DNA of 50,030 nucleotides, from the NCBI GenBank assembly GCA_019310525.1, contig JAFDEE010000005.1:1-50030 (forward strand), in the 5' to 3' direction. Positions 20,749 to 37,895 of this stretch are shown here, in pieces. The stretch's first letter is position 1. The number at the start of each line of letters is the position of its first letter. The notes under the pieces were generated by a model. The model worked only from the letters and a program-made list of their open reading frames with translations, searched no databases and was not told where the DNA came from. A program made the translations under genes and the position numbers. Source of the DNA: Deltaproteobacteria bacterium (GTDB lineage: Bacteria > Desulfobacterota > DSM-4660 > Desulfatiglandales > HGW-15).

Positions 20749-21801
20749 TCAAGATGATATTGCGGGATCCTGGAAGATTTTCCGGATGGATTCTTGGTAA
20801 GGAGGTCTGATCACCCCAACCTCGGTTATGATCGCGGTCACATAGGCGGCCGGTGAGATATCAAAGGCCGGATTGAAGGCCCTGACTCCCATTGGCCCGA
20901 TGTTCCTCTTCCCGATCCTGATGATCTCCTCAGGTGACCTAATCTCCACCGGAATCAAGTCCCCTGAAGCGATATCGGGATCAATGGTGGACAAGGGAGC
21001 GGCGACATAGAAGGGTATCCCATTTTCCTTCGCCAATACGGCAACCTGGTATGTGCCGATCTTGTTGGCCACGTCTCCGTTGGCGGCGATTCGGTCAGCC
21101 CCGGTGACCACCAGGTCGATTTTGTTTTGGCGCATCAGGGAGCCGGCTGCACTGTCGGCGATGACTGTGACGGGAATATCCTCTTCCATGAGTTCGAAGG
21201 CCGTGAGCCTGAGCCCTTGAAGCCACGGCCTGGTTTCATCGGCGATGACCTGGATGTTTTTCCCCGCCTCGTGGGCCGCCCGGATGACACCCAAAGCCGT
21301 TCCATACCCCCCCGTTGCAAGGGATCCCGCGTTGCAATGGGTCAGGATGGTGGCCCCTTCAGGGACCAAGGTCGCCCCGTTCTCACCGATTTTTCGATTG
21401 ATCGCGATATCCTCGGCAAGAATTCTCTCTGATTCCTCCCTAAGAGCCTTCTTGATCTCATCCGGGGGCCGGGAGGTCATCCTGTCCACAAGGGCCGACA
21501 TCCTTACGACGGCCCACTTCAGGTTGACCGCCGTGGGGCGGGCCTTGACCATACGGTCCGCTATCCGTACAAAGCGCCTCCGGAAGGAGCCGTAAGTTTT
21601 AGCCTCAATGGACGCAGCCCCCAAGGCCAAGCCCATGGCTGCCGCCACCCCGATAGCCGGGGCCCCCCGGATGACCATATTCTCGATGGCCCGAATCACG
21701 TCCCAGTATCTCCTGCACACGTACCATTGAACGCGTGAGGGCAACTTGCGTTGGTCGATCATCCTGATCGTGTCTTTATGCCACTCAATGGTAGGGATCA
21801 T
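20749..21801 (-). CDS. mtnA: S-methyl-5-thioribose-1-phosphate isomerase MtnA
   Basis: MtnA converts methylthioribose-1-phosphate to methylthioribulose-1-phosphate in methionine salvage. The protein (350 residues) belongs to the eIF2B-alpha-like superfamily. The catalytic pair is present: Cys156 in ILTHCNAGSLATGG and Asp236 in VVTGADRIAANGD, close to Cys160 and Asp240 of the Bacillus enzyme. RGAPAIGVAAAMG (about 45-57) is also conserved, which favours MtnA over ribose-1,5-bisphosphate isomerase. ATG 21801 follows CGGAGACGAT. It is 19 bases downstream of ilvE and 141 bases upstream of speH. Confidence 0.93.
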   Translation of the reverse strand: MIPTIEWHKDTIRMIDQRKLPSRVQWYVCRRYWDVIRAIENMVIRGAPAIGVAAAMGLALGAASIEAKTYGSFRRRFVRIADRMVKARPTAVNLKWAVVRMSALVDRMTSRPPDEIKKALREESERILAEDIAINRKIGENGATLVPEGATILTHCNAGSLATGGYGTALGVIRAAHEAGKNIQVIADETRPWLQGLRLTAFELMEEDIPVTVIADSAAGSLMRQNKIDLVVTGADRIAANGDVANKIGTYQVAVLAKENGIPFYVAAPLSTIDPDIASGDLIPVEIRSPEEIIRIGKRNIGPMGVRAFNPAFDISPAAYVTAIITEVGVIRPPYQESIRKIFQDPAISS

Positions 21802-21820
21802 ATCGTCTCCGAATAAAGCG

Positions 21821-22894
21821 CTAGTCGATCTTCACCCTCCACCCGTAAGGATCCTCCTTTTCTGCGTACTGGATCGCCATGATCTCATCATAAAGCCTCT
21901 GGGAGATTTCCCCCATTTTGCCGCCGGCCACCAGGTAGTCCTCTCCTTTGTATGTGATCTGGCCCACGGGTGAAATGACCGCGGCGGTTCCCGTTCCGAA
22001 GGCCTCCTTGAGACGTCCGCTCGTGGCGGCCTCTACCACCTCTTCAATGGCAAGGGAGCGCTCCGAGACCTTCATCCCCCAATCCCTGGCCATGTGGATC
22101 ACGGAATCCCGGGTGATTCCAGGCAAAATGCTTCCCGTGAGGGGCGCCGTGATGACTTCATCGTCGATCACGAAAAACATATTCATGGTGCCCACCTCTT
22201 CCACGTACCGGTGGTGGGCGCCATCCAGCCAAAGCACCTGAGTGAATCCCTTCTCCTTGGCCTCTTCCGCAGCAAGGAGACTGGCGGCGTAATTCCCGGC
22301 CGTCTTGGATTCCCCCACGCCCCCGACGACCGCCCGAACATACCGGTCTTCCACGTAAATCTTGACCGGGTTCAGCCCTTCCTTGTAGTAAGCTCCCACG
22401 GGGCCGAGAATGATGTAAAAAAGGTAGTTATTGGAAGGACGAACCCCCAAGTGGGGTTCAGTGGCCAGCATGGTGGGCCGGATGTAAAGGGATGTCCCCC
22501 TGCTCCTGGGGACCCAGTCCCGATCCAACAGAACAAGGCGCTTCATCCCTTCCATCACCAGGTCCACATCCAGTTCCGGCATGCAGATCCGCCTCGCGGA
22601 GCGGTTCATCCGCTTGATATTCTCTTCGGGGCGAAACAGATACAATCCGCCGTCCCTCCCGCAATAGGCCTTGAGTCCTTCGAAGATCTCTTGGCCGTAA
22701 TGAAGCGCCATGGCAGCGGGATCGATGGCCAGGTCCCGGTAGGGTTCAATGCGGGGATTGAACCAGCCCGCTCCCGCCTCGTAATCCATCAGGAACATGT
22801 GATCGGTAAAGATGTCACCAAAACCCAGTTTCGAATCGTCCTCGGGTTTGGGTTTCAATTGTTCTTTCCGTGCAGGGGTCACCTTGATCTCCAT
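21821..22894 (-). CDS. ilvE: Branched-chain amino acid aminotransferase
   Basis: This fold-type IV PLP aminotransferase (357 residues) resembles the long BCAT form. Motifs include ALHYGQEIFEGLKAY, the PLP lysine in GESKTAGNYAASLLA, the VEEVGTMNMFFV segment, and LTGSILPGITRDSV binding the cofactor phosphate. It normally makes Leu, Ile and Val. BCAT-like enzymes can also transaminate ketomethylthiobutyrate, the last step of methionine salvage, which would fit its place 19 bases before mtnA; that is inference. ATG 22894 has GGAGAAAGG upstream. Confidence 0.94.
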   Translation of the reverse strand: MEIKVTPARKEQLKPKPEDDSKLGFGDIFTDHMFLMDYEAGAGWFNPRIEPYRDLAIDPAAMALHYGQEIFEGLKAYCGRDGGLYLFRPEENIKRMNRSARRICMPELDVDLVMEGMKRLVLLDRDWVPRSRGTSLYIRPTMLATEPHLGVRPSNNYLFYIILGPVGAYYKEGLNPVKIYVEDRYVRAVVGGVGESKTAGNYAASLLAAEEAKEKGFTQVLWLDGAHHRYVEEVGTMNMFFVIDDEVITAPLTGSILPGITRDSVIHMARDWGMKVSERSLAIEEVVEAATSGRLKEAFGTGTAAVISPVGQITYKGEDYLVAGGKMGEISQRLYDEIMAIQYAEKEDPYGWRVKID

Positions 22895-23306: not shown

Positions 23307-24596
23307 CTATTGGATCTCGGGAATGATGTTGCCTCCTGAGGGGAAGACCGCGACATCACATTGCGGCATCACGTCCGCCACGCGGTTTACGGCCTCTTGA
23401 AGGTTTGCGGCATACTCGTATTTCATCATCTCCACCTGTTCCTTGCTAAGGCCTTCGGTGACGTGGATGACCCGGAACCTTTCGGCCAATTCCTTAAAGT
23501 AAACCACCTGCATGATGTAGGAGATCCCGAACTGCCTGAGGTGTTCGGGGATATCCCCCGAGAGCAGTCTGCGGTGAAAATCACTTGCCGTCTCGTCGCT
23601 TCCCATTTCCCGGATCAAGGGCATGATGGGTCCGGCCTGTGTCTGGGGCGCGACCCAGATGATGGTGCCGCCCGACCGTGTACAGAAACCCGCCATCACG
23701 AGGGCCTTGGTGGATTGAACGCCGATCTCTAAGGGATAGGCCGAAATGACGGTGACATCCGCAAGCCTCGGGATAGACACCTTATAGAGGTTCTCCGCAA
23801 AGGCGGCGGCAGCCCTCTGTTCCTCCACCGGGTCCCCGGAAAAGGCCCTGAGGATCTCCTTCTTCTCATTCATGACCAGATCCACCTTGAAGACCATGGT
23901 GGAAAGCCGCCCCGCATCCACGATTTCCTCCCAGAAATAATTTTTTTCCAACAAGTTGACCCGGCAATTGTGGTGGCGCATCCAAACGAAATGGTGGTCC
24001 GCGATGGTCCGGTATGAACAGACCCCCGGCATGATAAGCTTGAACCCTCCCCCATACCCGGCGATGGGATGGGGCATGCATTCACCTACTCCCACAGCAA
24101 GATCCGCGGAGGCCACGTGGGGATTAATCTCAACGAGGGTTCCCCGGCGGGTCCTGCCGATGATGACGTTGTCCGGTGCGTGGGGATCATGGCAAAACAG
24201 TCTCCCTTCGAGACGGGAAAAGACCGCTTCCCCCACCTTGCTCTTCAGTTGTTCGAGATCGAGGAGGGGATGGGTTCCAAGGGCGCACACACCCCTGATC
24301 CGTTCGTCCGGCACACCGGCCCGATTCAACCGGTCCATGATTTCCGGCAGCACAAGGTGCGCGGGGGTGGGACGCTGAAGGTCGTCAAAGAGGAGCGTTA
24401 CCTCCATCCCCGGCCCGGCCAAATCCTCGAGTCTGGGGGCCCCTACCGGGTGGTCCAAAGAACGCCTGACCTCCTGCAGGGGGTCTTCTACGCCTTTCAC
24501 AGGGGGGCGATCCTCCCCGGAAATCAGGCTCCAGCCTTCTGGGAGCGTGAATTCGATCCTTTTCTCCCCATAGTTCACGAAAGACTTCCTGTTCAT
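23307..24596 (-). CDS. LarA-family nickel-pincer racemase/epimerase homologue
   Basis: The 429-residue cytoplasmic protein belongs to the LarA (DUF2088) family. Family members racemise or epimerise 2-hydroxyacids using a nickel pincer nucleotide. The residues that hold the cofactor and catalyse in Lactiplantibacillus LarA are all present with a 1-2 residue offset: Arg75 in FDDLQRPTPAH, His109 in ALGTHPL, His176 and Lys186 in PHPIAGYGGGFKLIMPG (Lys184 carries the cofactor in LarA), and His202. Substrate cannot be assigned, since the family covers lactate, malate, sugar acids and others. No LarB, LarC or LarE gene is in the window. A TATAAT at 24635-24640 (minus) could be its -10. Confidence 0.88.
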   Translation of the reverse strand: MNRKSFVNYGEKRIEFTLPEGWSLISGEDRPPVKGVEDPLQEVRRSLDHPVGAPRLEDLAGPGMEVTLLFDDLQRPTPAHLVLPEIMDRLNRAGVPDERIRGVCALGTHPLLDLEQLKSKVGEAVFSRLEGRLFCHDPHAPDNVIIGRTRRGTLVEINPHVASADLAVGVGECMPHPIAGYGGGFKLIMPGVCSYRTIADHHFVWMRHHNCRVNLLEKNYFWEEIVDAGRLSTMVFKVDLVMNEKKEILRAFSGDPVEEQRAAAAFAENLYKVSIPRLADVTVISAYPLEIGVQSTKALVMAGFCTRSGGTIIWVAPQTQAGPIMPLIREMGSDETASDFHRRLLSGDIPEHLRQFGISYIMQVVYFKELAERFRVIHVTEGLSKEQVEMMKYEYAANLQEAVNRVADVMPQCDVAVFPSGGNIIPEIQ

Positions 24597-24840
24597 AAAT
24601 CCTCCTCCTGCGTTTGGAAAGGGGTTGAATCCAAATTATAGGTGTTTGGCGATGAACACAACTCGATCAAACAGGCGCCCTCCCTCCGCCACATGCATAA
24701 GGTGTGGCTCAGGTCGGGCGGACAATCTATCACATATAACTTCTTTCTTGACAGCAGGCTTTTTCATAGGTGCTTGAACGCTTGCCCGCTGGCTGTTTGG
24801 CGGGCTTGCCCCCCGGAATTATGGCGGGAACGTTAGCTTA

Positions 24841-25061
24841 GTGTCCATTCATAAATGAAAAAATTTGTGCAAGGTCAAGGAAGGCGAAAATTTTAACCAC
24901 AGGAATACATTGAAGTATTTTGAGGATTAAAATTTGTCCGCGCTGCGCTTGGACTCCCCACCCTTCGGGCGGGTCCCCGGTTTGAGCCTGACGCAGCTTG
25001 TCACGCCGTAGCCATAGCGAAGACGGAAGATTGCGGAAATTGGCCATTTATGGATGGACAC
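24841..25061. mobile_element. MITE-like element with TIRs and target duplication
   Basis: The clearest copy of the family: 221 bp, non-coding. The left end reads GTGTCCATTCATAAATG and the right end, on the opposite strand, GTGTCCATCCATAAATG (16/17 identical). TAGCTTA is duplicated exactly at 24834-24840 and 25062-25068. The core at 24870-24928 matches 1625-1683 in inverted orientation, while 24936-24977 matches 37828-37869 in inverted orientation and 24971-24992 equals 19930-19951. It opens a 1.46-kb gene-free interval (24597-26059). Confidence 0.88.
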
Positions 25062-25074
25062 TAGCTTAGATCAA

Positions 25075-25270
25075 AAGGGGCATGGGGATCTTTTCTTCGT
25101 TCCCGGTCTCACGGCCTGGTTATTTCAAGGGGTTAGTGACGGGGGATTCTTGCCCCCTCCGCCGATCTCCCGCTTTTACAAGCGGGAGCCGGGGCTTCCC
25201 CCATCCCTAACCCCTTGAAATAACGAAGGCCTCCCAACAGGTCACTTCAGAAAAGATCTCCATGCCCCTT
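25075..25270. repeat. Large hairpin element, copy 1
   Basis: Nested inverted repeats: an outer pair AAGGGGCATGGGGATCTTTT (25075-25094, continuing to 25096) with 25249-25270 (one mismatch), a middle pair TTATTTCAAGGGGTTAG (25120-25136) with 25207-25223, and an inner hairpin CTCCCGCTT (25167-25175)/AAGCGGGAG (25180-25188). The whole 196-bp unit would fold into one long rod. Its left arm recurs at 49948-50001. Confidence 0.8.
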
Positions 25271-26059: not shown

Positions 26060-27373
26060 TCAGCGGCCGAGGAGCCCGGGCAACCAGAGGACCAAATCGG
26101 GCCAGGCGATGATCATGGTCATGGCGGCTATTTCGCACAGGATGAAGGGTACCGCCGCATAACAGATTTCCTTGATGTTGATATCCGCCGGGGCTACCCC
26201 CTTCATGACGAAAAGCAGCATCCCAAAGGGGGGCGTAATGAATCCGGTCTCGAAATTGATAAGCATCAGGACACCGAACCAAACGGGGTCGAATCCCAGC
26301 ATCTTAACGATGGGCATGAAGATGGGCATGCAGATCATCATGATGGAGATGGTCTCCATAAATGTCCCCATCACGAATATTATGACCTGCATCCCGATTA
26401 AAATCACCAGGGGCGGCACATGGAGCCCCTCCACCAGCCCAAGGAGCCCCTGGGTCGCTCCCGTATAGGCCAGAATGCTGCTGAAGGAGTTGGAGGCGGC
26501 GATGATCATGAACACCATGACCGAGATTTCCAGGGTCCCCATAATGGAGGCCTTGAGCATCCTCCAGGTCAATCTCCCGTAAACAAGAGTGACCAGGATC
26601 GTGGCCAGGGCCCCCGAAGCGGCCGCCTCCGTCGGAGTCGCCACCCCCAGCAACATGAGCCCCAGGACCATGAAGATGATGAATCCGAGCGGGATCACAT
26701 ACTTGACGGTTGCCGCAACCTTTTCGAAAAAGGACGCGGCCTCGACATCGTAACGGGGGGCCAGAGAGGGATTCAACCAGCACCGAATGATGATGTAAGA
26801 GGCGATCAGCCCTCCCAGGAGAAGCCCGGGGATGACACCGCCCACCAGAATCTTCCCCACCGATATATGCCCGATGCTCGCCAATACTACCGCAAGAGAG
26901 GATGGCGGAATGAGCATGGCCAATCCCCCGACCCCGATGATGGGGCCGACGGCCATGGAAGTCTTGTATCCCCTCCGCCGCATTTCAGGGAGCAGCACGG
27001 TTCCCAGCATCGCGGTGTTGGCCAGGGTCGAACCACTCAGGGCGGCGAAGAGCACGCCGGCGCCTGCGGCCAGCAGGCTTAAGCGCCCGGGAAGGCGGCC
27101 CAGCCACTTGTCGATGACATCTATTGTATTATTGGCGATGCCCGAGTGGAACATCAGTTCACCCATGAGGATGAACAGGGGAATCGGGGTCAGGGTGAAG
27201 GTGGAAAGTGAGGAGAAGATCTGGAGGGTAACCTGGTGGAGCCCCATGGGGCCCATGAAAATCAGGATCCCCAGTATATCGATCATCAGGAAGCCGAAGG
27301 CGATTGGGAACCCGGTGGCGAGCAGGATTATCAGCCCCAGGATGAAGAAGCTTAGAACGGCCCACCACTCCAT
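26060..27373 (-). CDS. dctM: TRAP transporter large permease (DctM-like)
   Basis: This is the main translocation subunit of a tripartite ATP-independent periplasmic transporter, 437 residues with about 12 hydrophobic segments. Family landmarks are visible: GFPIAFGFLMID near the N-terminus, LFILMGELMFHSGIA, the ALSGSTLANTAMLG loop, LLGVATPTEAAASGALA, and GFITPPFGMLLFVMKG near the C-terminus. ATG 27373 has GGAG 9 bases upstream; its RBS region contains the dctQ stop codon (TGATCATG), indicating translational coupling. Uptake is driven by an ion gradient. Confidence 0.94.
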   Translation of the reverse strand: MEWWAVLSFFILGLIILLATGFPIAFGFLMIDILGILIFMGPMGLHQVTLQIFSSLSTFTLTPIPLFILMGELMFHSGIANNTIDVIDKWLGRLPGRLSLLAAGAGVLFAALSGSTLANTAMLGTVLLPEMRRRGYKTSMAVGPIIGVGGLAMLIPPSSLAVVLASIGHISVGKILVGGVIPGLLLGGLIASYIIIRCWLNPSLAPRYDVEAASFFEKVAATVKYVIPLGFIIFMVLGLMLLGVATPTEAAASGALATILVTLVYGRLTWRMLKASIMGTLEISVMVFMIIAASNSFSSILAYTGATQGLLGLVEGLHVPPLVILIGMQVIIFVMGTFMETISIMMICMPIFMPIVKMLGFDPVWFGVLMLINFETGFITPPFGMLLFVMKGVAPADINIKEICYAAVPFILCEIAAMTMIIAWPDLVLWLPGLLGR

Positions 27374-27375
27374 GA

Positions 27376-27933
27376 TCACCCTCTCCTTTCCTCTGGTACT
27401 CCTTCCACTCCGCCCGGGCCCGGCGTTTCCGATCGCCCCCTGGTGCCTCTATCCGTCTCCGCCCGACGAAAAGAAGCAACGAGATTTCTCGCGAACTGGA
27501 GGCCCAGGGTAAGGAACCCGATGGGAATGATCACCAGAACGAGGTACTTAGGCACGTCCACGGCCTTTACATCCGTCACACCCCGTTGAAACTGGTTCCA
27601 GGTCACGACCAGGCTGTACCAGAAGAGCACCGAGCATACGCCCACACCCATGAAACCGTGCAAGATGTTGAAAACCCTTTTCGCCGGAGGTTTGAGCCGG
27701 GACGTGATGATGTCCATGGAGACGTGCTTGCCGCGCTTCAGAACCCAGGCCGATCCCAGGAAACACAGCCATAGAAGCGAGTACTCGTTGAACTGAACAG
27801 TCCAGAGGGGACTTCGGATTCCAACCAGGCGTGCGAAGATGCTGTAGCCGATCGAGAAGGCGAGAAAAAGGAGGAGAAGACCGGCCATGACCGCCATTGT
27901 CGCCAAAATCCTATCCAGGATTTTTCCAACCAA
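27376..27933 (-). CDS. dctQ: TRAP transporter small permease (DctQ-like)
   Basis: The 185-residue membrane subunit has four hydrophobic helices (about 12-35, 50-68, 90-110, 130-152), as is standard for DctQ. The signature WTVQFNEYSLLWLCFLGSAW with a following KRGKHVSMDI is clear. The start is taken as TTG 27933 because GGAGGAG lies just upstream; an in-frame ATG at 28035 would overlap the dctP 3' end. The C-terminal 30 residues are charged and polar. It sits between dctP and dctM. Confidence 0.88.
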   Translation of the reverse strand: MVGKILDRILATMAVMAGLLLLFLAFSIGYSIFARLVGIRSPLWTVQFNEYSLLWLCFLGSAWVLKRGKHVSMDIITSRLKPPAKRVFNILHGFMGVGVCSVLFWYSLVVTWNQFQRGVTDVKAVDVPKYLVLVIIPIGFLTLGLQFARNLVASFRRAETDRGTRGRSETPGPGGVEGVPEERRG

Positions 27934-27968
27934 ACCTTCTCCTCCTTCCCGAATGATTCGTTTTTCGA

Positions 27969-28973
27969 TTACTTGGAAACCATTTCTCTCAGTTTGGGCC
28001 CGTTTTCCGGAGACTTCTTGATGACGACATTCCACAGAGCGGAGTAAGCTGCATCAGAAAATTTCTTCGCCTCTGTGGGGGGCAAGTTAATGAATTGTAT
28101 TCCGAGTTTCCTATAGGCCTCGAATTTTTTCTTCATGAGGGCCTGGGCGCGGTCAATGGTATAATGCTCGGCCTGCTCTTCCGTTTCGATCAACAACTTT
28201 TGAAGATGTTGAGGGATCTGATCCCACTTCTTCTTGTTGATGAGCACAACGTTGGCGCCGGTGTAAAAGGGTACGTTGATGATATACTTTGTGACCTCCT
28301 GCCATCCCCAGTCGTCGATCAAACCTGCAATCCATACAAAACCGTCGACCACTCCGCGTTCCAGGGCAGTGTAAACGTCGGGCGGCGGGATGACCAAGGG
28401 CTGTGCTCCGAGGGATTTCAAGAAATTGATATGGGTCGGTGAGCAACGAATCTTCAGTCCGGTAAGATCAGCGCTTTTGACGGATTTGGTGAGGTAGACC
28501 ATGAAGGGAAGACCGTTGCCCATCCTGCCGAGGTAAACACAATTGACCTTTTCCCTGTGGATTTTATCGAGAAAGTCATTGACTCCCCTGGCCCGCTCTT
28601 CCCATGGCCGGATCTTTGTAAGGCTGAGGGCGTTTGCCTCCGGTACGGCCGAAACGTAATATCCGTCGGTGGTGAACACCATGTCCACCAGTCCGTTGCG
28701 GGCGGCCTCCACCTGTTCACGGTTGGGAATTACTTCTGGTCCGCCTGCATACTTGATCTCAAGTTGTCCGGGATATTGCTTCTTGACGTTTTGATTCACC
28801 ATTTCAATAAATTTCAAAAAATTCTGAACCTCGTAAACGGTCTTGGGCCATGCGGACACCGCCTTGATCGTCACCTTTTTCGGGGCCGCGATACTCACGG
28901 ATGCCATCGATACCACCAAAATCAGCGCCATACACACCCATAGGAATCGCCTGAATAAACGCTTTCTGTCCAT
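27969..28973 (-). CDS. dctP: TRAP transporter periplasmic substrate-binding protein (DctP-like)
   Basis: The 334-residue binding protein has a clear signal peptide (MDRKRLFRRFLWVCMALILV, cleavage near SIAA-PKKVTI). The DctP-family features include FTTDGYYVSAVPEANAL, the KSVKSADLTGLKIRCSPTHI ligand arginine region, and ALERGVVDGFVWIAG. The conserved arginine in LKIRCSP usually pairs with a substrate carboxylate, so an organic acid is the likely cargo. ATG 28973 follows AAGGAGGAG. It lies 138 bases downstream of the oxidoreductase beta subunit on the same strand. Confidence 0.93.
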   Translation of the reverse strand: MDRKRLFRRFLWVCMALILVVSMASVSIAAPKKVTIKAVSAWPKTVYEVQNFLKFIEMVNQNVKKQYPGQLEIKYAGGPEVIPNREQVEAARNGLVDMVFTTDGYYVSAVPEANALSLTKIRPWEERARGVNDFLDKIHREKVNCVYLGRMGNGLPFMVYLTKSVKSADLTGLKIRCSPTHINFLKSLGAQPLVIPPPDVYTALERGVVDGFVWIAGLIDDWGWQEVTKYIINVPFYTGANVVLINKKKWDQIPQHLQKLLIETEEQAEHYTIDRAQALMKKKFEAYRKLGIQFINLPPTEAKKFSDAAYSALWNVVIKKSPENGPKLREMVSK

Positions 28974-29111
28974 GTCTCCTCCTTTCAAACTTGTTTATTA
29001 TAAAACAAAACCTCACCGCGGTAATGCTCCCGCGGTCTTCCCGTCTCCCCTGAAACCACAAAAAGATCCGGTCCGAATACTCCCATACATCAGGCCGGAC
29101 CCAGCCCTCCT

Positions 29112-29996
29112 TCAACAAGTCTGTTTTTCTGAACGTCGCCTGAGTTCTTCCCAGGCCCGGTCCGTCTCATGCTGGATGGCCCGGAGTTCTTCTGCTCCCA
29201 GGTGCTTGAAGCGGCCCTGGAGGCCCAGGTAGGTCTCGACGGGGAGCCCTCTGGACTGGTAGTTGAGGGTATAGTGGATTCCATCCAGGATCTCATAAAG
29301 GGGAAACACGTTTGTTTCCACTGCGGCGCGGGCCACGCGGGGAGAGAGATGCTCGGCCGTTTTCCACCCCGTCGGGCAAGGTGAGAGTAGGTGGATAAAC
29401 CTCGTGCCACGGATCTCCCTGGCCTTTTGCACCTTCGCTGCGAGATCCTCAGGGAAACCGATGGAGGCAGTCGCAGCATAGGGTATGCGGTGGGCGGCCA
29501 TGATCTCCATGATCTGCTTCTTCCTCCGGGTATTCCCTCTGGGTGATGTCCCGGTCCAGGCGAACCGGGGGGTGGCCGAGCTTACCTGAATGCCCGTGTT
29601 CATGTAAGCCTCGTTGTCCAAGCACACATAGATGAAGTTCTCGTTTCGATCCGCGGCTCCGGAGAGGGACTGGAGCCCGATATCAAAGGTGCCGCCATCC
29701 CCCGCAAAGGCAAGCACGGGGATGTCTCCCCGACCCTGGATCTCCAGGGCCCTGGAAATGCCCGCCGCCGTTGGGGCCGCAATCTCAAAGGCCGAATGGA
29801 ACATGGGCACGTCCAGCGTGGCATAAGGAAAGGGCCCGGAAATCACGGCGCTGCAGGAAGGGACTACCACCACGACCGCCGGTCGGCCCAGGGCCCGGAG
29901 TACCATACGCATACCCATGGCCACACCGCACCCCGGACAGGCCGAATGACCGGACCGCATGACCTCTTCCGGACGCATGATTTCTTGCGCTTCCAT
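29112..29996 (-). CDS. 2-oxoacid:ferredoxin oxidoreductase, beta (TPP) subunit
   Basis: The 294-residue subunit binds thiamine diphosphate and a [4Fe-4S] cluster in a pyruvate-ferredoxin-oxidoreductase-type enzyme (PorB-like). Cluster cysteines are seen in SACPGCG (about 18-24), VPSC (about 48) and SPCPTGW (about 199). The TPP/Mg motif is FAGDGGTFDIG, followed by CLDNEAYMNTGIQVSSATPR, typical of PorB. Its ATG shares a base with the stop codon of the alpha gene (TAATG), so the two are translationally coupled. The precise 2-oxoacid cannot be fixed from sequence. Confidence 0.93.
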   Translation of the reverse strand: MEAQEIMRPEEVMRSGHSACPGCGVAMGMRMVLRALGRPAVVVVVPSCSAVISGPFPYATLDVPMFHSAFEIAAPTAAGISRALEIQGRGDIPVLAFAGDGGTFDIGLQSLSGAADRNENFIYVCLDNEAYMNTGIQVSSATPRFAWTGTSPRGNTRRKKQIMEIMAAHRIPYAATASIGFPEDLAAKVQKAREIRGTRFIHLLSPCPTGWKTAEHLSPRVARAAVETNVFPLYEILDGIHYTLNYQSRGLPVETYLGLQGRFKHLGAEELRAIQHETDRAWEELRRRSEKQTC

Positions 29997-31150
29997 TACT
30001 CCCCCTCCGCCATCCAGATCGGCCCGTCCGTGGCCTCCTTCCGCTCCAGGGCATCCATGACCACCCGCTCGATCAATTCCGGGTCCACGTTGGAACCTCC
30101 TATCCCTGCCACGTATCCCTGGACCTGATGAGGAAACGGGCTGTTAATAAGCGCCGCCTTCAACTCGGAGCAAAAGATCCCTTCCCGCCCAAGGGAGATA
30201 TTCCTCTCTATCACAGCTATCCGCGAAACCCGGTCGAGAACGTCTCTCAAAACCCGGGCAGGAAAGGGTCTGAAGACCCGGATTTTCAGGAGACCGATCC
30301 TATAGCCTTTCTCCCTGAGGCGTGCCAGGGCAACCCGGGCCGTTGAAGTGACGGTCGCCGTTGTGACCAGCACCAGGTCGGCGCCATCGATTCCCTCCGC
30401 CTCGATAAGGCCGTAACCCCGCCCGAAGACCTCGACGAATTCCCGGTCAACCTCCTCAACAACCTCCAGGGCATACTCCATGGCTTCCTGGCCAAGGCGG
30501 CGGTATTCCATGAACTGTTTCTGGGTGACCGTCGGGACCGCGTATCCGGGCTTGTCCGGGTCAAAACGCCTGGGGATGTCCACGGGGGGCAGGAAGCGGT
30601 CAACGAGTCCTTGCTCCGGCACCTCCACAGGCTCCATGAAATGGGAAATGAAATGCCCCTCGATCACCACCATACATGGAAGAAGAACTTTTTCAGCAAT
30701 CCGGAAGGCCTGGATGACCGAGTCAAGGGCCTCCTGATTATTCTCGCAGTAGATCTGTATCCAGCCGGTGTCCCTCTGGGCGAGGCTGTCGGTCTGATCG
30801 CTCCAAAAGGCCCATGGACCGGCAAGGGTTCTGTTCACGTTGACCATCACCACCGGGGCCCTGCACCCAGAGGCGAAATGGAGCATCTCGTGCATCAGGG
30901 CCAGCCCCTGGGAGGAAGTGGCCGTAAAGGTCCGGACGCCCGCAAGGGAGGCTGCCAAACAGGCCGCCATTGCGGAGTGCTCGGATTCGGTTCGCATCAT
31001 GACTCCCCCTAATTCCCCTGTTGCCTCCCATTCTGAAAGCCTCTCGTAGATCGGCGTCTGAGGGGTAATGGGATAGGCGGCCACCATCTGGGTCCGGCAG
31101 AGACGGACAGCCTCAGCAACTGCATGGTTTCCGGTCTGAAATTTCCTCAT
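29996..31150 (-). CDS. 2-oxoacid:ferredoxin oxidoreductase, alpha subunit
   Basis: The 384-residue PorA-like subunit contributes to the active site and 2-oxoacid binding. It starts GNHAVAEAVRLCRTQMVAAY with the conserved YPITPQTPIYERLSEW. MRTESEHSAMAACLAASLAG and TSSQGLALMHEML follow. The C-terminal domain II has KIRVFRPFPARVL and AVIERNISLGREG. The start codon overlaps the stop of the preceding fusion gene by 4 bases (ATGA). It is part of the tightly packed gamma, fusion, alpha, beta operon. Confidence 0.93.
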   Translation of the reverse strand: MRKFQTGNHAVAEAVRLCRTQMVAAYPITPQTPIYERLSEWEATGELGGVMMRTESEHSAMAACLAASLAGVRTFTATSSQGLALMHEMLHFASGCRAPVVMVNVNRTLAGPWAFWSDQTDSLAQRDTGWIQIYCENNQEALDSVIQAFRIAEKVLLPCMVVIEGHFISHFMEPVEVPEQGLVDRFLPPVDIPRRFDPDKPGYAVPTVTQKQFMEYRRLGQEAMEYALEVVEEVDREFVEVFGRGYGLIEAEGIDGADLVLVTTATVTSTARVALARLREKGYRIGLLKIRVFRPFPARVLRDVLDRVSRIAVIERNISLGREGIFCSELKAALINSPFPHQVQGYVAGIGGSNVDPELIERVVMDALERKEATDGPIWMAEGE

Positions 31151-32889
31151 TTCGCCTCATCCATACTCATTACTCCCCCGGGGCACACGTCGACACAAAC
31201 AGCACAACCCTTACAGTAGTCGGGGTCACACGTATACACGAAACGGTCCTCTCCGGGGGGTAGAATCGAAAGTTCCGGACAATAGAGAAAACACCGGTCA
31301 CAGCTCGTGCATGTCCCGCAAAAAAAGCAACGGCCGGCAAGTTCCTTTGAATCGCTCCGACTCAGGGATTGATTGATTTCCCGGAAATTTCCAAGGCGAT
31401 CTCCGGGGGAAAGCCGGGGGAGGTCGGCCCTCGGATGGGAATCGAGAAAGATCGGATCCATGCCATCGAAACGTACAACCATTTCCGGGTGCCAGCCCGG
31501 ACGTTCATGAAACAGGGCATGGATGGAAAAAGAATTCCCCGATCCCAAAAGAACTCGGGCTTCGGCCTCCTCGAAGGATCGGCCGAGTACGGTCTGATGT
31601 ATGGAAAGGGCCGCCCGCTTTCCCGCGGCGATTGCCCCTACCACGGACCCGGGGTAGTTCACTAAGTCACCCCCGGCATAGATCCCGCGAATGGAGGTTT
31701 GAAGGCTCTCTGCCTCGACCTTGGGTCCCCCTCTGGAATCCTTATCCAATGATACCTGTCCTTCAAGGATCGAGAGATCCGGTGCGCGGCCCACGGCCAG
31801 GAGAACAAGGTCCGCTTGCAGGACCATAGCCGTTGCATTGTCGTAAGCGGGACGGAAGGCCCCTTCGGCGTCAAGGACCGACAGGCACTTGATGAACTCG
31901 ATTCCAGTCACCCGGTTCGCGCGGCCCGAAAAGGTCCTTGGTCCCCACCCGTTATGGAATACGACTCCCTCCTCCAGGGCGTCGAGGCACTCTCTTTCGT
32001 CCGCGGGCATCTCGTGTCTCTGCTCCAGACATACGAGATCGACCCTTCGGGCGCCGAGCCTCAGGGCCGTCAGGGCCGCGTCTATGGCAACGTTTCCGCC
32101 TCCAATGACCACCACCCTGCCTTCGATTTGCCTAGGCTCCTGTTGCACCTCCTTCAAGAAATTGACTGCGTAGTGAACTCCCTCCAGTTCCTCCCCTGTA
32201 ATTCCCAGGTGCAGATCCCTCTGGGCGCCCAGGGCCAGGAATACGGCCTCGTGGTTATTACAGAGTTTTTCCAGCAGGAGGCGGTCCAGGCGGGTCCCGG
32301 TCCTTACCTGAATATCCAGAGAAAGAATCCGCTCCAGATCCTTCTCCAGGGCCTCCAAGGGAAGCCGGTAGCGGGGGATTCCCCACCGGAGAAGCCCTCC
32401 CAGGGATTCCTCCGCTTCCACCAGGGTAACGGGATGACCCATCCGGGCCAGATGGTAAGCAGCAGAGAGTCCGGCAGGGCCGGAACCCACGACGGCTACC
32501 GGAAGATCTCTCCCCGCATCCGTAAGGGGGACAGGCCGGGCCGTTCCCCAATCCGATGCGGCCCTTTCCAGGGCCCGAATATGGACCGCCCCGTCCCACT
32601 CTCCCCGGTTGCACTCCCCTTCACAGGGATGGTAGCAGACCCGGCCGCAGGTGCCGGGCAGGGGGTTCTCTTCGAGAAAGGCGGCCAGGGCGCCGTCAAA
32701 ATCCCCAAGAGAGGCCCTGTAAAGGGCCGCGGGAATGTTGTTCCCCGCAGGACAGGCCACCCGGCAGGGAGAAGCCTTCTCTTCGTGCCGGGGCCTGCGG
32801 ATTCCCCAGGTTCCCGTCTTGTTGACCTTGGAACTGTGGCGGGATATGGGGATGATCAACTCGGGATCCACGCATCGCCTCAAGGTCAT
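31147..32889 (-). CDS. GltD-like FAD/NAD(P) oxidoreductase fused to PorD-type ferredoxin
   Basis: This 580-residue fusion has an N-terminal stretch with TGTWGIRRP, reminiscent of the PorD opening. A GltD-type Fe-S domain follows (CRVACPAGNNIPAALYRASL, then CGRVCYHPCEGECNRGEWDG). The FAD site is VVGSGPAGLSAAYHLARMGH (about 134-153) and the NAD(P) site VVVIGGGNVAIDAALTALRLG (about 258-278). A C-terminal ferredoxin (about 520-580) has two cysteine clusters (CFFCGTCTSCDRCFLYCPE and CKGCAVCVDVCPGG). It probably takes the place of the separate delta subunit and links the oxidoreductase to NAD(P)H. ATG 32889 follows the gamma stop by one base, with GGAGG upstream. Confidence 0.9.
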   Translation of the reverse strand: MTLRRCVDPELIIPISRHSSKVNKTGTWGIRRPRHEEKASPCRVACPAGNNIPAALYRASLGDFDGALAAFLEENPLPGTCGRVCYHPCEGECNRGEWDGAVHIRALERAASDWGTARPVPLTDAGRDLPVAVVGSGPAGLSAAYHLARMGHPVTLVEAEESLGGLLRWGIPRYRLPLEALEKDLERILSLDIQVRTGTRLDRLLLEKLCNNHEAVFLALGAQRDLHLGITGEELEGVHYAVNFLKEVQQEPRQIEGRVVVIGGGNVAIDAALTALRLGARRVDLVCLEQRHEMPADERECLDALEEGVVFHNGWGPRTFSGRANRVTGIEFIKCLSVLDAEGAFRPAYDNATAMVLQADLVLLAVGRAPDLSILEGQVSLDKDSRGGPKVEAESLQTSIRGIYAGGDLVNYPGSVVGAIAAGKRAALSIHQTVLGRSFEEAEARVLLGSGNSFSIHALFHERPGWHPEMVVRFDGMDPIFLDSHPRADLPRLSPGDRLGNFREINQSLSRSDSKELAGRCFFCGTCTSCDRCFLYCPELSILPPGEDRFVYTCDPDYCKGCAVCVDVCPGGVMSMDEAK

Positions 32890-32890
32890 C

Positions 32891-33442
32891 TCATGCCTCC
32901 GGTTCGAAGATTTCGAGTTTCTCGTATCCCTGCTCAAGGGCTGCCAGATTCATCTCCCTTTTGGCCGGGACCATTTCCTCCACCGCCCTGATCACGTGTT
33001 CCAGAGGAAGCTCGTCGTTGAAACGGCAATAGGCCCCCAGTACCGTGGTGTTGATCACATGCCCCAGTCCGACCTCCTCGGCGATCCCGGTGGCATCGAT
33101 GAGTCCCAGGCGAAATCCAACAAGACCGGGAATAGCCGCTTCCGTTCGGGGTGTATTGATGAGGATCCCGGACCCAGAGCCCGCGACGGAGGAAAGATCC
33201 TCGGCGTCTAGGAGACTTTGATCGAAATAGAGGAGTTCGTCAGGGTTCTTGATGTCACATTTCAGTAAGATGGGATCCCGATCCACCCTGAGAAAACTCA
33301 CAACGGGCGCCCCTCGTCGCTCGCCGCCGAAAAGGGAATAGCACTGGGGGTACATCCCGGCCTTAAAAAAAGCCATGCCGAGCATCTGAGAGGCCATGAC
33401 GACACCTTGACCTCCCCGTCCGTGCAGCTTGATCTCCTTCAT
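32891..33442 (-). CDS. 2-oxoacid:ferredoxin oxidoreductase, gamma subunit
   Basis: The 183-residue PorG-like subunit begins MKEIKLHGRGGQGVVMASQM, the hallmark of the family. It continues with QCYSLFGGERRGAPVVSFLR and a final conserved helix region near VEEMVPAKREMNLAALEQGYE. It is the first gene of the operon, downstream of the candidate operator at 33520-33532. The following fusion gene starts one base after its stop. Confidence 0.92.
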   Translation of the reverse strand: MKEIKLHGRGGQGVVMASQMLGMAFFKAGMYPQCYSLFGGERRGAPVVSFLRVDRDPILLKCDIKNPDELLYFDQSLLDAEDLSSVAGSGSGILINTPRTEAAIPGLVGFRLGLIDATGIAEEVGLGHVINTTVLGAYCRFNDELPLEHVIRAVEEMVPAKREMNLAALEQGYEKLEIFEPEA

Positions 33443-33519
33443 TCTCCAGCGACCTCGTTACGCGCTTGGGCCCCATCCCCTATAACGCTTAAAAAGACCT
33501 TTTTTCACCTTATCATGGA

Positions 33520-33532
33520 ATACTGTACCCCA
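33520..33532 (-). promoter_or_regulatory. Candidate GntR operator before the oxidoreductase operon
   Basis: On the minus strand this reads TGGGGTACAGTAT, identical over 13 bases to 34513-34525 in front of the regulator gene. It follows a plausible -35 TTGTGA, 17 bases and -10 TTTACT (about 33531-33559, minus). A regulator bound here would cover the transcription start. The GTAC centre fits the GT/AC-type operators of the GntR family. Confidence 0.65.
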
Positions 33533-33695
33533 GTAAAATACCTAAAAACTTTCTTCACAAACGTTTCCAGGCTCCCTTTCCATCTCTTACCGCACGGCCT
33601 GCAGACAAACCGTGTCATAGGCCTTGATGACGGAAATGTTCCAGGCCGCCGATAACGACCCGTTTGAGTCCCTCGCCTTCTCTCTTCCCTTACCG

Positions 33696-34409
33696 CTATC
33701 TCCCGTTCTTCCCCGGAGGCACCCCTACCCTTCCTCGGTTCTCTATAAAGGCGTGTTCCTGGATACTCCTCTTGGCAAATTCCAGGTGCCTTCGCACCGC
33801 GGTGCCGATCCGCTTTTCGTCCCGTTTCTTAAGACACTCCAGGATGCCCTTGTGTCCTTCAATGGCCGCAAGAGCCGTCTCGGCCAGGTAGAGGCTCTCG
33901 ATCCGGTAACGCAGCATGTGGCGGCGTAACTGCTCGCACAGTTCCATCAAGCGTTCGCTGCCGCTCGCCCGGACCAGGATCTCGTGGAATTCCGCATCCC
34001 GTTCCACGAAGGCCTTTGGGTTGCCCTCTTTCACCTCCCTTTCAGCCTCTTCGATGTTCTTCTCCAACGCTCGAATATTTTTGGAGGTAATTCTTTTGAT
34101 GGCCCAGCGGGCAGCAAGGGTCTCGTTTACGGCCCTAATTTCACAGATCTCCTCGACCTCGTCCCAACTGAGCTGCTTCACCCTGTATCCCACGCGGGGA
34201 ATAGCCACAAGGAGGCCTTCCCTTTCCAGCAGGTGAAGGGCCTCCCTCACAGGGGTCCTCGAGGTCTTGATCTGTTTTGCAAGGCGCGTCTCTATCAACC
34301 GGGCGCCGGGTGCAATGTTGCCGTTAAGGATCTCGTCCCGAATGACCCGGTATACCTTTTCACGGATAGATACAGGGTTTTGGATCGAGATTTTCAGTGT
34401 GTTTTCCAA
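33696..34409 (-). CDS. GntR-family regulator with FCD domain
   Basis: This 237-residue DNA-binding regulator has a winged helix (about 13-78: VYRVIRDEILNGNIAPGARL, then SRTPVREALHLLEREGLL and RVGYRV). An all-helical FCD ligand-binding domain follows (about 88-215) with metal-ligand histidines in the expected helices (EFHEIL, RRHMLRY, EGHKGILE). FCD regulators sense small organic acids. The start is probably TTG 34409, since no ATG occurs before the HTH; the ribosome site is weak. It is encoded directly upstream of the oxidoreductase/TRAP locus and shares a candidate operator with it, so it is the likely local repressor. Confidence 0.9.
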   Translation of the reverse strand: MENTLKISIQNPVSIREKVYRVIRDEILNGNIAPGARLIETRLAKQIKTSRTPVREALHLLEREGLLVAIPRVGYRVKQLSWDEVEEICEIRAVNETLAARWAIKRITSKNIRALEKNIEEAEREVKEGNPKAFVERDAEFHEILVRASGSERLMELCEQLRRHMLRYRIESLYLAETALAAIEGHKGILECLKKRDEKRIGTAVRRHLEFAKRSIQEHAFIENRGRVGVPPGKNGR

Positions 34410-34512
34410 GACCAGGGTATAGCCTTTCTTTGAGATATAGGTTTCGGGGGGTTAAAGACCTTGAGCAGCCTTCCTGATGGAATCGGATTATTCCAAAGAA
34501 AGGCAATTATGT

Positions 34513-34525
34513 ATACTGTACCCCA
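34513..34525 (-). promoter_or_regulatory. Candidate GntR operator before the regulator's own gene
   Basis: Second copy of the 13-base word TGGGGTACAGTAT (minus strand), the same orientation and the same place just downstream of the -10 as at 33520-33532. This suggests autoregulation. Confidence 0.65.
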
Positions 34526-34526
34526 A

Positions 34527-34554
34527 TTTACAGAACCCTCTCAACACCTGTCAA
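34527..34554 (-). promoter_or_regulatory. Candidate sigma70 promoter of the GntR gene
   Basis: On the minus strand TTGACA (34549-34554, perfect) and TGTAAA (34527-34532, 4/6) with a 16-base spacer. The candidate operator abuts the -10. The start codon is about 115 bases downstream. Confidence 0.6.
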
Positions 34555-34844: not shown

Positions 34845-37007
34845 ATGAAAACCGGGAAAGGCCCATTTTCCAAAACTCGAGACATGAAACGTCCACTGTT
34901 TGACATAGGAATCGATTTCAGGAAGATCTATGATCAGTTCGCTGACCCGGTCTTCCTCGTCGATTCGGATTCGGGGCGGATCCTTGACTGCAACAGCGAA
35001 GCGCTGATTCGATACGGATACTCCCGTGACGAATTCCTCCGGATGACACCCTTAGATCTCCATCCTCCGGAAGAAAGGGAGAGAGCGCTCAGAAACCTCC
35101 GGGAATCCCGACATACGGGTCCTCATCTCTATCATCACCTCACCAAGGACGGCCGCCGCATTCCTGTGGAAGTCAACACGAGTTTTATCCACCTGGAAGG
35201 CAAATCCACGATTCAGGTCAGCATCATCAGGGATATCTCCGAGAGGCAGGAGAACGCCGAGCGGCTCCGGCAAAGTGAGATTCGGTTCAGGCAACTCTTC
35301 GAGCAGTGCAACGACGGCGTGATCATTCACCGGGCGGGACAAATCCTGGAAGTAAATCACCGAACCTGCGAGATGCTGGGTTACACCAAGCAGGAACTCC
35401 TCTCGATGAGCATCCCTGAGCTTCACGCAAAAGAAAACCGCATTGAATCCCGTCAAAGGCTCATTTCCATCCAGTCCGGGGCCCCGATGGTCTTCGAGAC
35501 CCAGTGGCTGCGGAAGGACGGGACACCGGTTGATCTGGAAATCAGCTCCCGTGTCATTGTGCCTGAAAAGCAGATCGTTCAAGGTATTGTGAGGGACATA
35601 ACCGAACGCAAGCGTGTGGAAGAGGCCCTCAGGAGCAGCGAAGAGCGCTACCGAATCCTCGCTGAAAACGTGGCCGACGGGGTCGCTGTCCTGGTCAATG
35701 ACAGGTTCACTTACGTAAACGACGCCATGGTGGAGATCTTCGGATACGAAAAAGAATATCTCCTTTCCATGGATCCGGTCCACCTGATACGGGAAGAATA
35801 CAGGAAAGAATTCGAGGGCGCTCTTTTCGCGGTGGGCAAGGAGACCCATGTTCCGCCGTTTCAGTCTCCCGCAATTCGTGTCGATGGGACGGAGATCTGG
35901 ACTGAGCAGCATCTGAACCGGATCGTCTGGGAAGGTCGGCCGGCTGTTCTTGCCACTATCCGTGACGTTACGGAAACAAGACAGCGGGAATTGGAGATGA
36001 TCCAGGAAACAGAGTTCCTGCGCAAGGAAAACGCCAGACTCCGAAACGGGTTCAAGGACCGCTTCAGGTTCGGTGACATCATCGGCAAGAGCCCCGCCAT
36101 GCAGGAGGTCTATGAACTTATTCTCAAATGCTCGGTTTCAGACGTCAATGTAGTGATCTACGGGGAATCCGGCACCGGTAAAGAACTCGTGGCCCGAACC
36201 ATACACCGGATGAGCGAGGCCCGGGAGAAGCCCTTCGTGCCTGTAAACTGCGGGGCCATCCCTGAATCCCTGTTCGAAAGCGAGTTCTTCGGGCACCGGA
36301 AAGGTGCCTTCACAGGGGCTGTGGCCGACAAGCACGGGTACTTCGACCTGGCCCAGGGAGGCACCCTTTTTCTGGACGAGATCGGGGAACTGCCCCTTGC
36401 CATGCAGGCCAAACTTCTCCGGGCCATCGACGGCGGAGGATACATGCCAGTTGGAGGCAACCAATTCAAAGAGGCGCGCTTCCGTATACTGGCGGCCACC
36501 AACCGTGACCTGTATGAATACGTCCTAAAGGGTCTGATGAGGGAAGACTTCTTTTACCGGATCCATATCATCCCCATCCACCTCCCCCCCCTCAGGGAGA
36601 GGAAGGAGGACATTCCTATTCTTGTGGAACATTTCATTCAGTCGAGCGGATATAAGGGAAGTTCTTTCCCTATTCCGGCAAAGATTATGGATGCCCTTTG
36701 CAACTACGACTGGCCGGGAAACGTGAGAGAGCTTCAGAACGTTCTCAACCGCTACCTCACGGTCAGACGACTGGACCTTACCGGAAAACGCCCGTCTCCC
36801 TCTCCTTCCAAATCTCAAGGCGGGGCCCATGGTTCTCCGACCTACCCCCGGAATCTCCGTCGGGCCCTGGATCTCTTTGAGAAGTCGTGTATTGAGCGGG
36901 CCTTGGAGAAAAACCGGTGGCACCGGGGAAAGACCGCAGCAGAGCTGGGTATTCCCCCAAGGACTTTGCACAGGAAGATGAAAAAATTCAGGCTGATATC
37001 GTCTTAA
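34845..37007 (+). CDS. PAS-domain sigma54-dependent transcriptional activator
   Basis: This 720-residue enhancer-binding protein has three N-terminal PAS domains (about 22-135, 145-258, 265-380; the first has FADPVFLVDSDSGRILDCNS). An AAA+ domain (about 405-640) holds Walker A GESGTGKE (from about 440), the sigma54-contacting GAFTGA loop (487-492) and Walker B TLFLDEIGE. The C-terminal Fis-type helix-turn-helix (about 675-718) includes AAELGIPPRTLHRKMKKF. No membrane segment is seen, so sensing is cytoplasmic, perhaps of redox state or a small ligand. ATG 34845 is preceded by CAGG. A sigma54 promoter lies about 180 bases beyond its 3' end. Confidence 0.94.
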   Translation: MKTGKGPFSKTRDMKRPLFDIGIDFRKIYDQFADPVFLVDSDSGRILDCNSEALIRYGYSRDEFLRMTPLDLHPPEERERALRNLRESRHTGPHLYHHLTKDGRRIPVEVNTSFIHLEGKSTIQVSIIRDISERQENAERLRQSEIRFRQLFEQCNDGVIIHRAGQILEVNHRTCEMLGYTKQELLSMSIPELHAKENRIESRQRLISIQSGAPMVFETQWLRKDGTPVDLEISSRVIVPEKQIVQGIVRDITERKRVEEALRSSEERYRILAENVADGVAVLVNDRFTYVNDAMVEIFGYEKEYLLSMDPVHLIREEYRKEFEGALFAVGKETHVPPFQSPAIRVDGTEIWTEQHLNRIVWEGRPAVLATIRDVTETRQRELEMIQETEFLRKENARLRNGFKDRFRFGDIIGKSPAMQEVYELILKCSVSDVNVVIYGESGTGKELVARTIHRMSEAREKPFVPVNCGAIPESLFESEFFGHRKGAFTGAVADKHGYFDLAQGGTLFLDEIGELPLAMQAKLLRAIDGGGYMPVGGNQFKEARFRILAATNRDLYEYVLKGLMREDFFYRIHIIPIHLPPLRERKEDIPILVEHFIQSSGYKGSSFPIPAKIMDALCNYDWPGNVRELQNVLNRYLTVRRLDLTGKRPSPSPSKSQGGAHGSPTYPRNLRRALDLFEKSCIERALEKNRWHRGKTAAELGIPPRTLHRKMKKFRLISS

Positions 37008-37701: not shown

Positions 37702-37746
37702 ATGCTCGAAATTGACAAGGTTCTTTTCAAGGATGTCGTTACTTAG
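37702..37746 (+). other. Fourteen-codon ORF abutting a repeat insertion
   Basis: ATG 37702, behind AAAGGGGGTG, opens MLEIDKVLFKDVVT and stops at TAG, whose last base is the first base of the repeat at 37746. Deleting the repeat and one copy of the apparent TACTT duplication would give TGA at the same codon. The ORF was therefore equally short before the insertion, or the site had already decayed. It could be a leader peptide or chance. Confidence 0.25.
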
Positions 37747-37895
37747 TGCCCATCCACAAATGTATTTTGGGCACTTGCAAGTTTCCAATCCAGAAAAGAG
37801 CTGTTTTTCACGAGATCAAGGAACCTTGGGACCCAACCGAAGGGTGAAGAGTCCAAGCGAAACGCGGACAAAAGGAGCCATTTATGGATGGAAAC
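37746..37895. mobile_element. MITE-like element between signalling genes
   Basis: A 150-bp non-coding element whose ends read GTGCCCATCCACAAATG (left) and, on the opposite strand, GTTTCCATCCATAAATG (right). It is flanked by TACTT(A) and TACTT(G), an imperfect target duplication. Bases 37828-37869 are related in inverted orientation to 24936-24977. It separates the receiver gene from the Cache gene. Confidence 0.75.

Follow-up and report, generated by a model that had tools for sequence, protein, structure and literature searches.

The window, i.e. the whole analysed stretch of DNA of 50,030 nucleotides, contains a gene for a GntR-type transcriptional regulator with an FCD domain, followed on the minus strand, after a gap of 253 bp, by genes of a 2-oxoacid:acceptor oxidoreductase in the order gamma-GltD-alpha-beta and by genes of a TRAP transporter, DctP-DctQ-DctM, which extend down to position 26060. 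The features of the locus are as follows.

34845-37007, divergent from the FCD regulator gene and adjacent to it: PAS/sigma-54 activator
34526..34554, minus strand: predicted promoter of the FCD gene, TTGACA at 34554-34549 and GTAAAT at 34531-34526, spacer 17, abutting operator B
34509..34525, minus strand: putative operator B, TGGGGTACAGTATACAT, upstream of the FCD regulator gene, centre of the dyad at 34517 (PWM score 27.5, best of the window)
33696..34409, minus strand: FCD-domain GntR regulator, 237 aa (Pfam GntR 60.4 bits, cut-off 27; FCD 93.6 bits, cut-off 24.3)
33533..33560, minus strand: possible but weak promoter of the operon, with TTGTGA at 33560-33555, 22 nt upstream of operator A, and without a clear -10
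33516..33532, minus strand: putative operator A, TGGGGTACAGTATTCCA, upstream of the oxidoreductase operon, centre of the dyad at 33524 (PWM score 26.4, second best of the window)
32891..33442, minus strand: oxidoreductase gamma (PF01558 109.5 bits; TIGR02175 148 bits, cut-off 81)
31147..32937, minus strand: GltD-like FAD/NAD(P)-binding subunit with a 4Fe-4S dicluster (delta-like, ferredoxin-like) tail (profile matches)
29996..31150, minus strand: oxidoreductase alpha (PF01855 229 bits)
29112..29996, minus strand: oxidoreductase beta, TPP-binding (PF02775 78 bits; NF008818 371 bits, below the cut-off of 405)
27969..28988, minus strand: TRAP solute-binding protein DctP (PF03480 111 bits)
27376..28035, minus strand: TRAP small membrane subunit DctQ (PF04290 82 bits)
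26060..27379, minus strand: TRAP large permease DctM (PF06808 268 bits)
23307..24596, minus strand: LarA-like nickel-pincer 2-hydroxyacid racemase/epimerase, after a gap of 1.46 kb (PF09861 160 bits)

The regulator combines an N-terminal GntR winged helix with a C-terminal FCD domain, the domain pair of the FadR subfamily of the GntR family. The LarA-like protein is 70% identical to the LarA-like neighbour found in relatives; it reaches the Pfam Lar_N cut-off and lies below every NCBIfam cut-off (LarAH6 malate racemase, 257.8 of 500 bits). A LarC-family gene is present in the source genome, and no operator of its own was found for the LarA-like gene. Genes for an MtnA-like protein and a branched-chain aminotransferase (20749-22894) follow on the same strand. 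Elsewhere in the window, the stretches 24840-25080 and 37740-37880 are alike by eye (gaagggtg.ggagtccaagcg...cgcggacaa) and are perhaps a dispersed repeat.

The word TGGGGTACAGTAT is present in two exact copies on the minus strand, at 33520-33532 before the oxidoreductase operon and at 34513-34525 before the FCD gene, as the earlier note had reported. A genome scan for further sites, proposed in the same note, returned only these two places in the 3.78 Mb genome (158 contigs) with up to one mismatch, compared with 5 for the backwards control pattern; the word is not common. The 17-bp version with up to three mismatches gave 62 matches in the whole genome versus 93 for its control, a background level; the two window sites rank among the best matches. 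No third site that would point to a wider regulon in the source genome was detected by either pattern. One 13-mer is common to the two intergenic regions, of 253 and 435 bp, on the same strand. Since a common 13-mer was also reached in 2 of 600 dinucleotide shuffles, the repeat judged from the window alone is only suggestive.

The search for orthologs of the regulator covered 118 relatives, 85 genomes of the order, 395 genomes of the phylum and named genomes; orthologs from the latter are those among the matches listed. They were found in 11 of the 85 genomes of the order (E 1e-50) and in 25 of the 395 genomes of the phylum (E 1e-45). The class-level search covered the same 85 genomes as the search in the order, and two more rows came from a looser threshold. 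Of the loci inspected, those of the better matches, most have the regulator gene at the head of the oxidoreductase operon, preceded by the word. In four loci (L060, L185, L186 and L187) the regulator gene follows that of beta, and the word is located before gamma instead. In Desulfobacula (L068), the regulator gene and a DctP-led operon lie on opposite strands, and TGGGGTACCGTATGCAC, an operator variant common to both sites of that genome, precedes both.

Matrix work was carried out on 38 of the 46 upstream regions, including two from the window and two from Desulfobacula; G040, G028, bin589, CSMAG, G168, G396b, G313b and G333b (identity of 47% or less) were omitted. G108, G396, G431, G145 and G341 are represented by the region before gamma, picked after the gene order and the site had been seen. 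The matrix itself was built on 31 of the 38 regions, those with a promoter-strand match of at least 12 and full flanks. An unbiased EM motif search in the 38 regions found the word first, with a log-likelihood of 355 versus 63 and 58 for shuffled sequences. With each region scored by a matrix built without it, 34 of the 38 regions upstream of orthologous FCD regulators or their operons reached at least 13. None of the 98 upstream regions of control FCD genes contains a site (maximum score 11.4); these genes were taken from the source genome, relatives and other phyla, and the controls omit 9 of the 76 lower-scoring named loci listed (L071-L146). The number of exact core matches in the 34 genomes with an ortholog or a remnant of it is not raised (32 versus 38 for the backwards control); it is their position alone that is unusual, 23 of the 32 being located at the regulator's locus.

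A clade of 37 regulators (support 98/94) in a tree of 43 comprises all 31 rows labelled as operator-bearing, and the label is clustered on the tree (6 changes versus a shuffled mean of 10.7). Six rows of the clade were labelled as lacking the operator, one of which, G396b, has sites on closer inspection. G396b and bin589 had been omitted from the matrix yet belong to the clade; the sites of G396b score 16.6 and 14.0, and bin589 has none. No clear site was found inside the clade for G027, bin589 (L069) and G378, and only weak sites are present in Olavius (L067), also a member. In G130, where the FCD gene lies inside the operon near a contig edge, no site was found. The operons of G028 (gamma-GltD-alpha-beta) and G040 (gamma-GltD to the contig end) are accompanied by FCD regulators from outside the clade and have no site, while in L054, L055 and L056 the regulator and the site are kept together with other genes, without the oxidoreductase operon, which argues that the site tracks the regulator and not the operon. 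L063:900-2690 holds the remains of an FCD regulator gene and, after them, an exact operator, a LarA-like gene and then an LDH-like gene.

According to an alignment of 31 sites, the operator proper is the 17-bp dyad TGGGGTAC-N-GTAYMCCA, whose centre is the base that follows GTAC (33524 and 34517 in the window). Position 9 of the 17-mer gives the best dyad centre, with a complementary fraction of 0.69 versus a median of 0.26. The earlier note had placed the centre in GTAC itself, which this alignment rules out. Complementary pairs are formed by positions 8/10 in 30 sites, 7/11 in 31, 6/12 in 30 and 3/15 in 30; the invariant core is TAC-N-GTA with the outer G3 and C15, and the flanks are poorly conserved. 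The sites of G341 are perfect dyads, TGGTATAC-N-GTATACCA; two of them are located between the regulator gene and gamma (L188:666-682 and L188:806-822). Perfect or near-perfect palindromes of 24 bp, each composed of two 17-bp operators that share 10 bp, were observed at L171:9349-9372, L171:12377-12400 and L231:7232-7255, and possibly accommodate two dimers side by side.

The earlier note described both copies of the word as lying immediately after a -10 box. This is firm for the FCD gene, where the predicted -10 (GTAAAT, or TAAATT in the alternative TTGACA-18-TAAATT, the version picked by the promoter scan) ends at the operator. It is weak for the operon, whose best -35, TTGTGA, has 4 of 6 consensus matches and on whose side no hexamer pair on the minus strand reached the promoter-scan threshold. 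In a survey of 46 upstream regions, a perfect TTGACA precedes the start of the operator by 22-23 nt in 10 regions and by 12-13 nt in 15, which places the operator at two positions one helical turn apart; the distance is 21 nt in G011 and 18 nt in G051, and in the remaining regions no perfect TTGACA lies in this range. Both window sites belong to the long-spacing class (23 nt for operator B, 22 nt for operator A, the latter with no better -35 than TTGTGA). With the long spacing the operator lies over the expected start point of transcription, while in the short class the -10 (TACAGT) would fall within the operator; both positions would suit repression by occlusion. In nine genomes the ATG of the regulator gene is located 2 nt after the operator, which fills the place of the ribosome-binding sequence. 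Because no space is left for such a sequence, the regulator mRNA of the nine short-spacing loci is probably leaderless. In these nine loci, L170, L173, L177, L178, L180, L181, L182, L183 and L184, TTGACA lies 13 nt before the operator. Since no terminator between the FCD gene and the operon was found by a scan of the window, read-through from the promoter at operator B may also serve the operon.

The reading that we prefer, with a probability of about 0.85, is that the FCD regulator represses its own gene and the operon of the NADH-linked 2-oxoacid oxidoreductase and the TRAP transporter via the 17-bp dyad, and that a 2-hydroxyacid or 2-oxoacid probably relieves this repression. The product of 33696-34409 would bind 34509-34525 and 33516-33532 as a dimer; over the start-point region just past the -10, the bound protein would block RNA polymerase, and both the regulator gene and the oxidoreductase/TRAP operon would be repressed. 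A 2-hydroxyacid or 2-oxoacid, imported by the TRAP transporter or derived from the import, would then bind the FCD domain and release the repressor. Comparative analysis shows the dyad, its constant link to the regulator clade, its placement at promoters and its restriction to two places in the genome; we infer physical binding, dimer stoichiometry, the class of the ligand and repression over activation. As for an autoregulated local repressor, the operator precedes both the regulator gene and the target operon in the window and in Desulfobacula (L068). The proposal of the earlier note that a local regulator controls itself and its catabolic operon gains support from the word following the FCD clade in several families, from its moving with the gene order and from its absence in the controls; the sign of the control, repression, is suggested by the position of the operator only.

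It is improbable that the regulator binds the same sites as an activator or in a dual role: FCD regulators can activate, a dual role of E. coli LldR is cited in the reference list, as available, of the LurR paper, and the promoter at operator A is weak, as activated promoters often are, but at most loci the operator, 12-13 or 22-23 nt past TTGACA, overlaps either the -10 or the likely start of transcription, where a bound protein would stand in the way of polymerase, and TTGACA is perfect in most of these promoters. Recognition of the word by another regulator, for example the PAS/sigma-54 activator, is very unlikely. Its gene is adjacent and divergent, and relatives of it occur near some loci (one cluster, 5 of 44 loci), but most operator loci have no such gene nearby, and the operator label clusters on the tree of FCD proteins. 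Moreover, no sigma-54-type promoter was found at either of the two sites (9 matches in the window versus 18 expected), which speaks against control by this activator. The shuffles that produced a common 13-mer are what favours a chance repeat without function; this explanation has a negligible probability, and conservation of the word across many families at ortholog promoters, in 34 of 38 regions versus 0 of 98 controls, rules it out.

For repression by the FCD regulator, the composition of the regulon provides hints about the ligand. Nine exact core matches lie away from the regulator locus, and six of them, in five places, have TTGACA upstream. A second type of oxidoreductase follows the core in L233; in L231 the core precedes a gene resembling, by eye, lactate/malate dehydrogenase, and in two places of L232 genes resembling, also by eye, branched-chain amino-acid ABC transport; the target of the core with upstream TTGACA in L235 is unclear. 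LarA-like genes were found in 19 of 44 regions; other regions contain lactate/malate dehydrogenases and pairs resembling GlcD/GlcF. Enzymes of the LarA family act on 2-hydroxyacids, according to the available parts of two papers (PMC7583248, PMC11770544), the first of which also states that the context of LarA is not always predictive of its substrate. Because LarA-like and lactate/malate-type dehydrogenase neighbours recur, the ligand is likely a 2-hydroxyacid or its 2-oxoacid. The best PDB match of the DctP sequence is uninformative in this respect ('TRAP dicarboxylate transporter-DctP subunit').

The system is of a known kind, LldR/LutR-like and with ordinary local control, and its operator and regulon appear to be new. 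LldR, PdhR and GlcC of the FadR subfamily have the same GntR and FCD domain pair and locally control organic-acid catabolism. The regulator scores below the NCBIfam cut-offs for PhnR (117.9/271.5), NanR (70.6/260), CsiR (61.7/218), LldR (49.2/311), PdhR (35.8/330) and GlcC (23.9/301). The closest solved structures by sequence, found with a family profile, include 7xp0/7xp1 ('Probable transcriptional regulator', E 2.5e-38) and 3sxy ('Transcriptional regulator, GntR family', E 1.1e-25), the latter being, as we assume, TM0439; they are distant, and their names and functions are not transferable. Residues D138, H142, H186 and H208 are invariant in 16 orthologs and align with D, H, H and H of 3sxy, which we take to bind metal there. 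The regulator thus has the D-x3-H...H...H residues, presumably the metal ligands of the FCD pocket, as putative metal ligands of its own. The gamma, GltD-like, alpha and beta make-up of the operon is similar to what we take to be that of the NADH-dependent phenylglyoxylate dehydrogenase PadEFGHI, but matches to NCBIfam PadE, PadG and PadI are far below the cut-offs (113/300, 282/700 and 228/700 bits).

The operator departs from the FadR-subfamily consensus of TKGT/ACMA boxes, in which GT and AC are mostly 2-3 nt apart, as given in the part of the source available (PMC4494728): its core is TAC-N-GTA with an outer G and C. Since NanR and BioR are exceptions in the same source, this mismatch does not exclude membership of the subfamily. 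LurR of Desulfovibrio was ruled out as a regulator of the same kind, since it works with the sensor kinase LurS and has a different site, as far as its description was available. The operator was not found described in the literature searched, and an earlier description in work on GntR regulators of Desulfovibrionales (PMC3536172) is possible; for a GntR regulator combined with TRAP and 2-oxoacid oxidoreductase genes, only work on MocR regulators turned up.

LutR of Bacillus subtilis is a GntR-type repressor of L-lactate utilisation with the site TCATC-N1-GATGA downstream of promoters and L-lactate as effector (PMC11734750, available in part). It resembles the present regulator as a GntR-type repressor of a 2-hydroxyacid operon with a transporter, and its site is likewise an inverted repeat with a one-base centre, located past promoters. 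It differs in the half-site and in its operon, which, in that part of the source, encodes iron-sulfur lactate oxidation proteins and a permease, without a 2-oxoacid oxidoreductase or TRAP transporter.

Tentatively, and with somewhat less than even confidence, the regulators may represent an undescribed FCD group of Desulfobacterota-like bacteria with its own TAC-N-GTA operator and a regulon of racemase, dehydrogenase, NADH-linked oxidoreductase and TRAP transporter, in which the operator slides mainly by whole helical turns and in one position holds the -10 and abuts the start codon of a leaderless mRNA. If so, the operator in the short-spacing position would overlap the promoter, the start point and the translation start at once. 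On the preferred reading already, a word with two copies in the window becomes a testable operator and regulon common to many uncultured anaerobes and a handle on the organic acids served by their 2-oxoacid oxidoreductases and TRAP transporters; the regulator and its site are also a candidate pair of sensor and operator for 2-hydroxyacids or 2-oxoacids. Set beside the operators of known FCD regulators, the predicted dyad would widen the range of their shapes.
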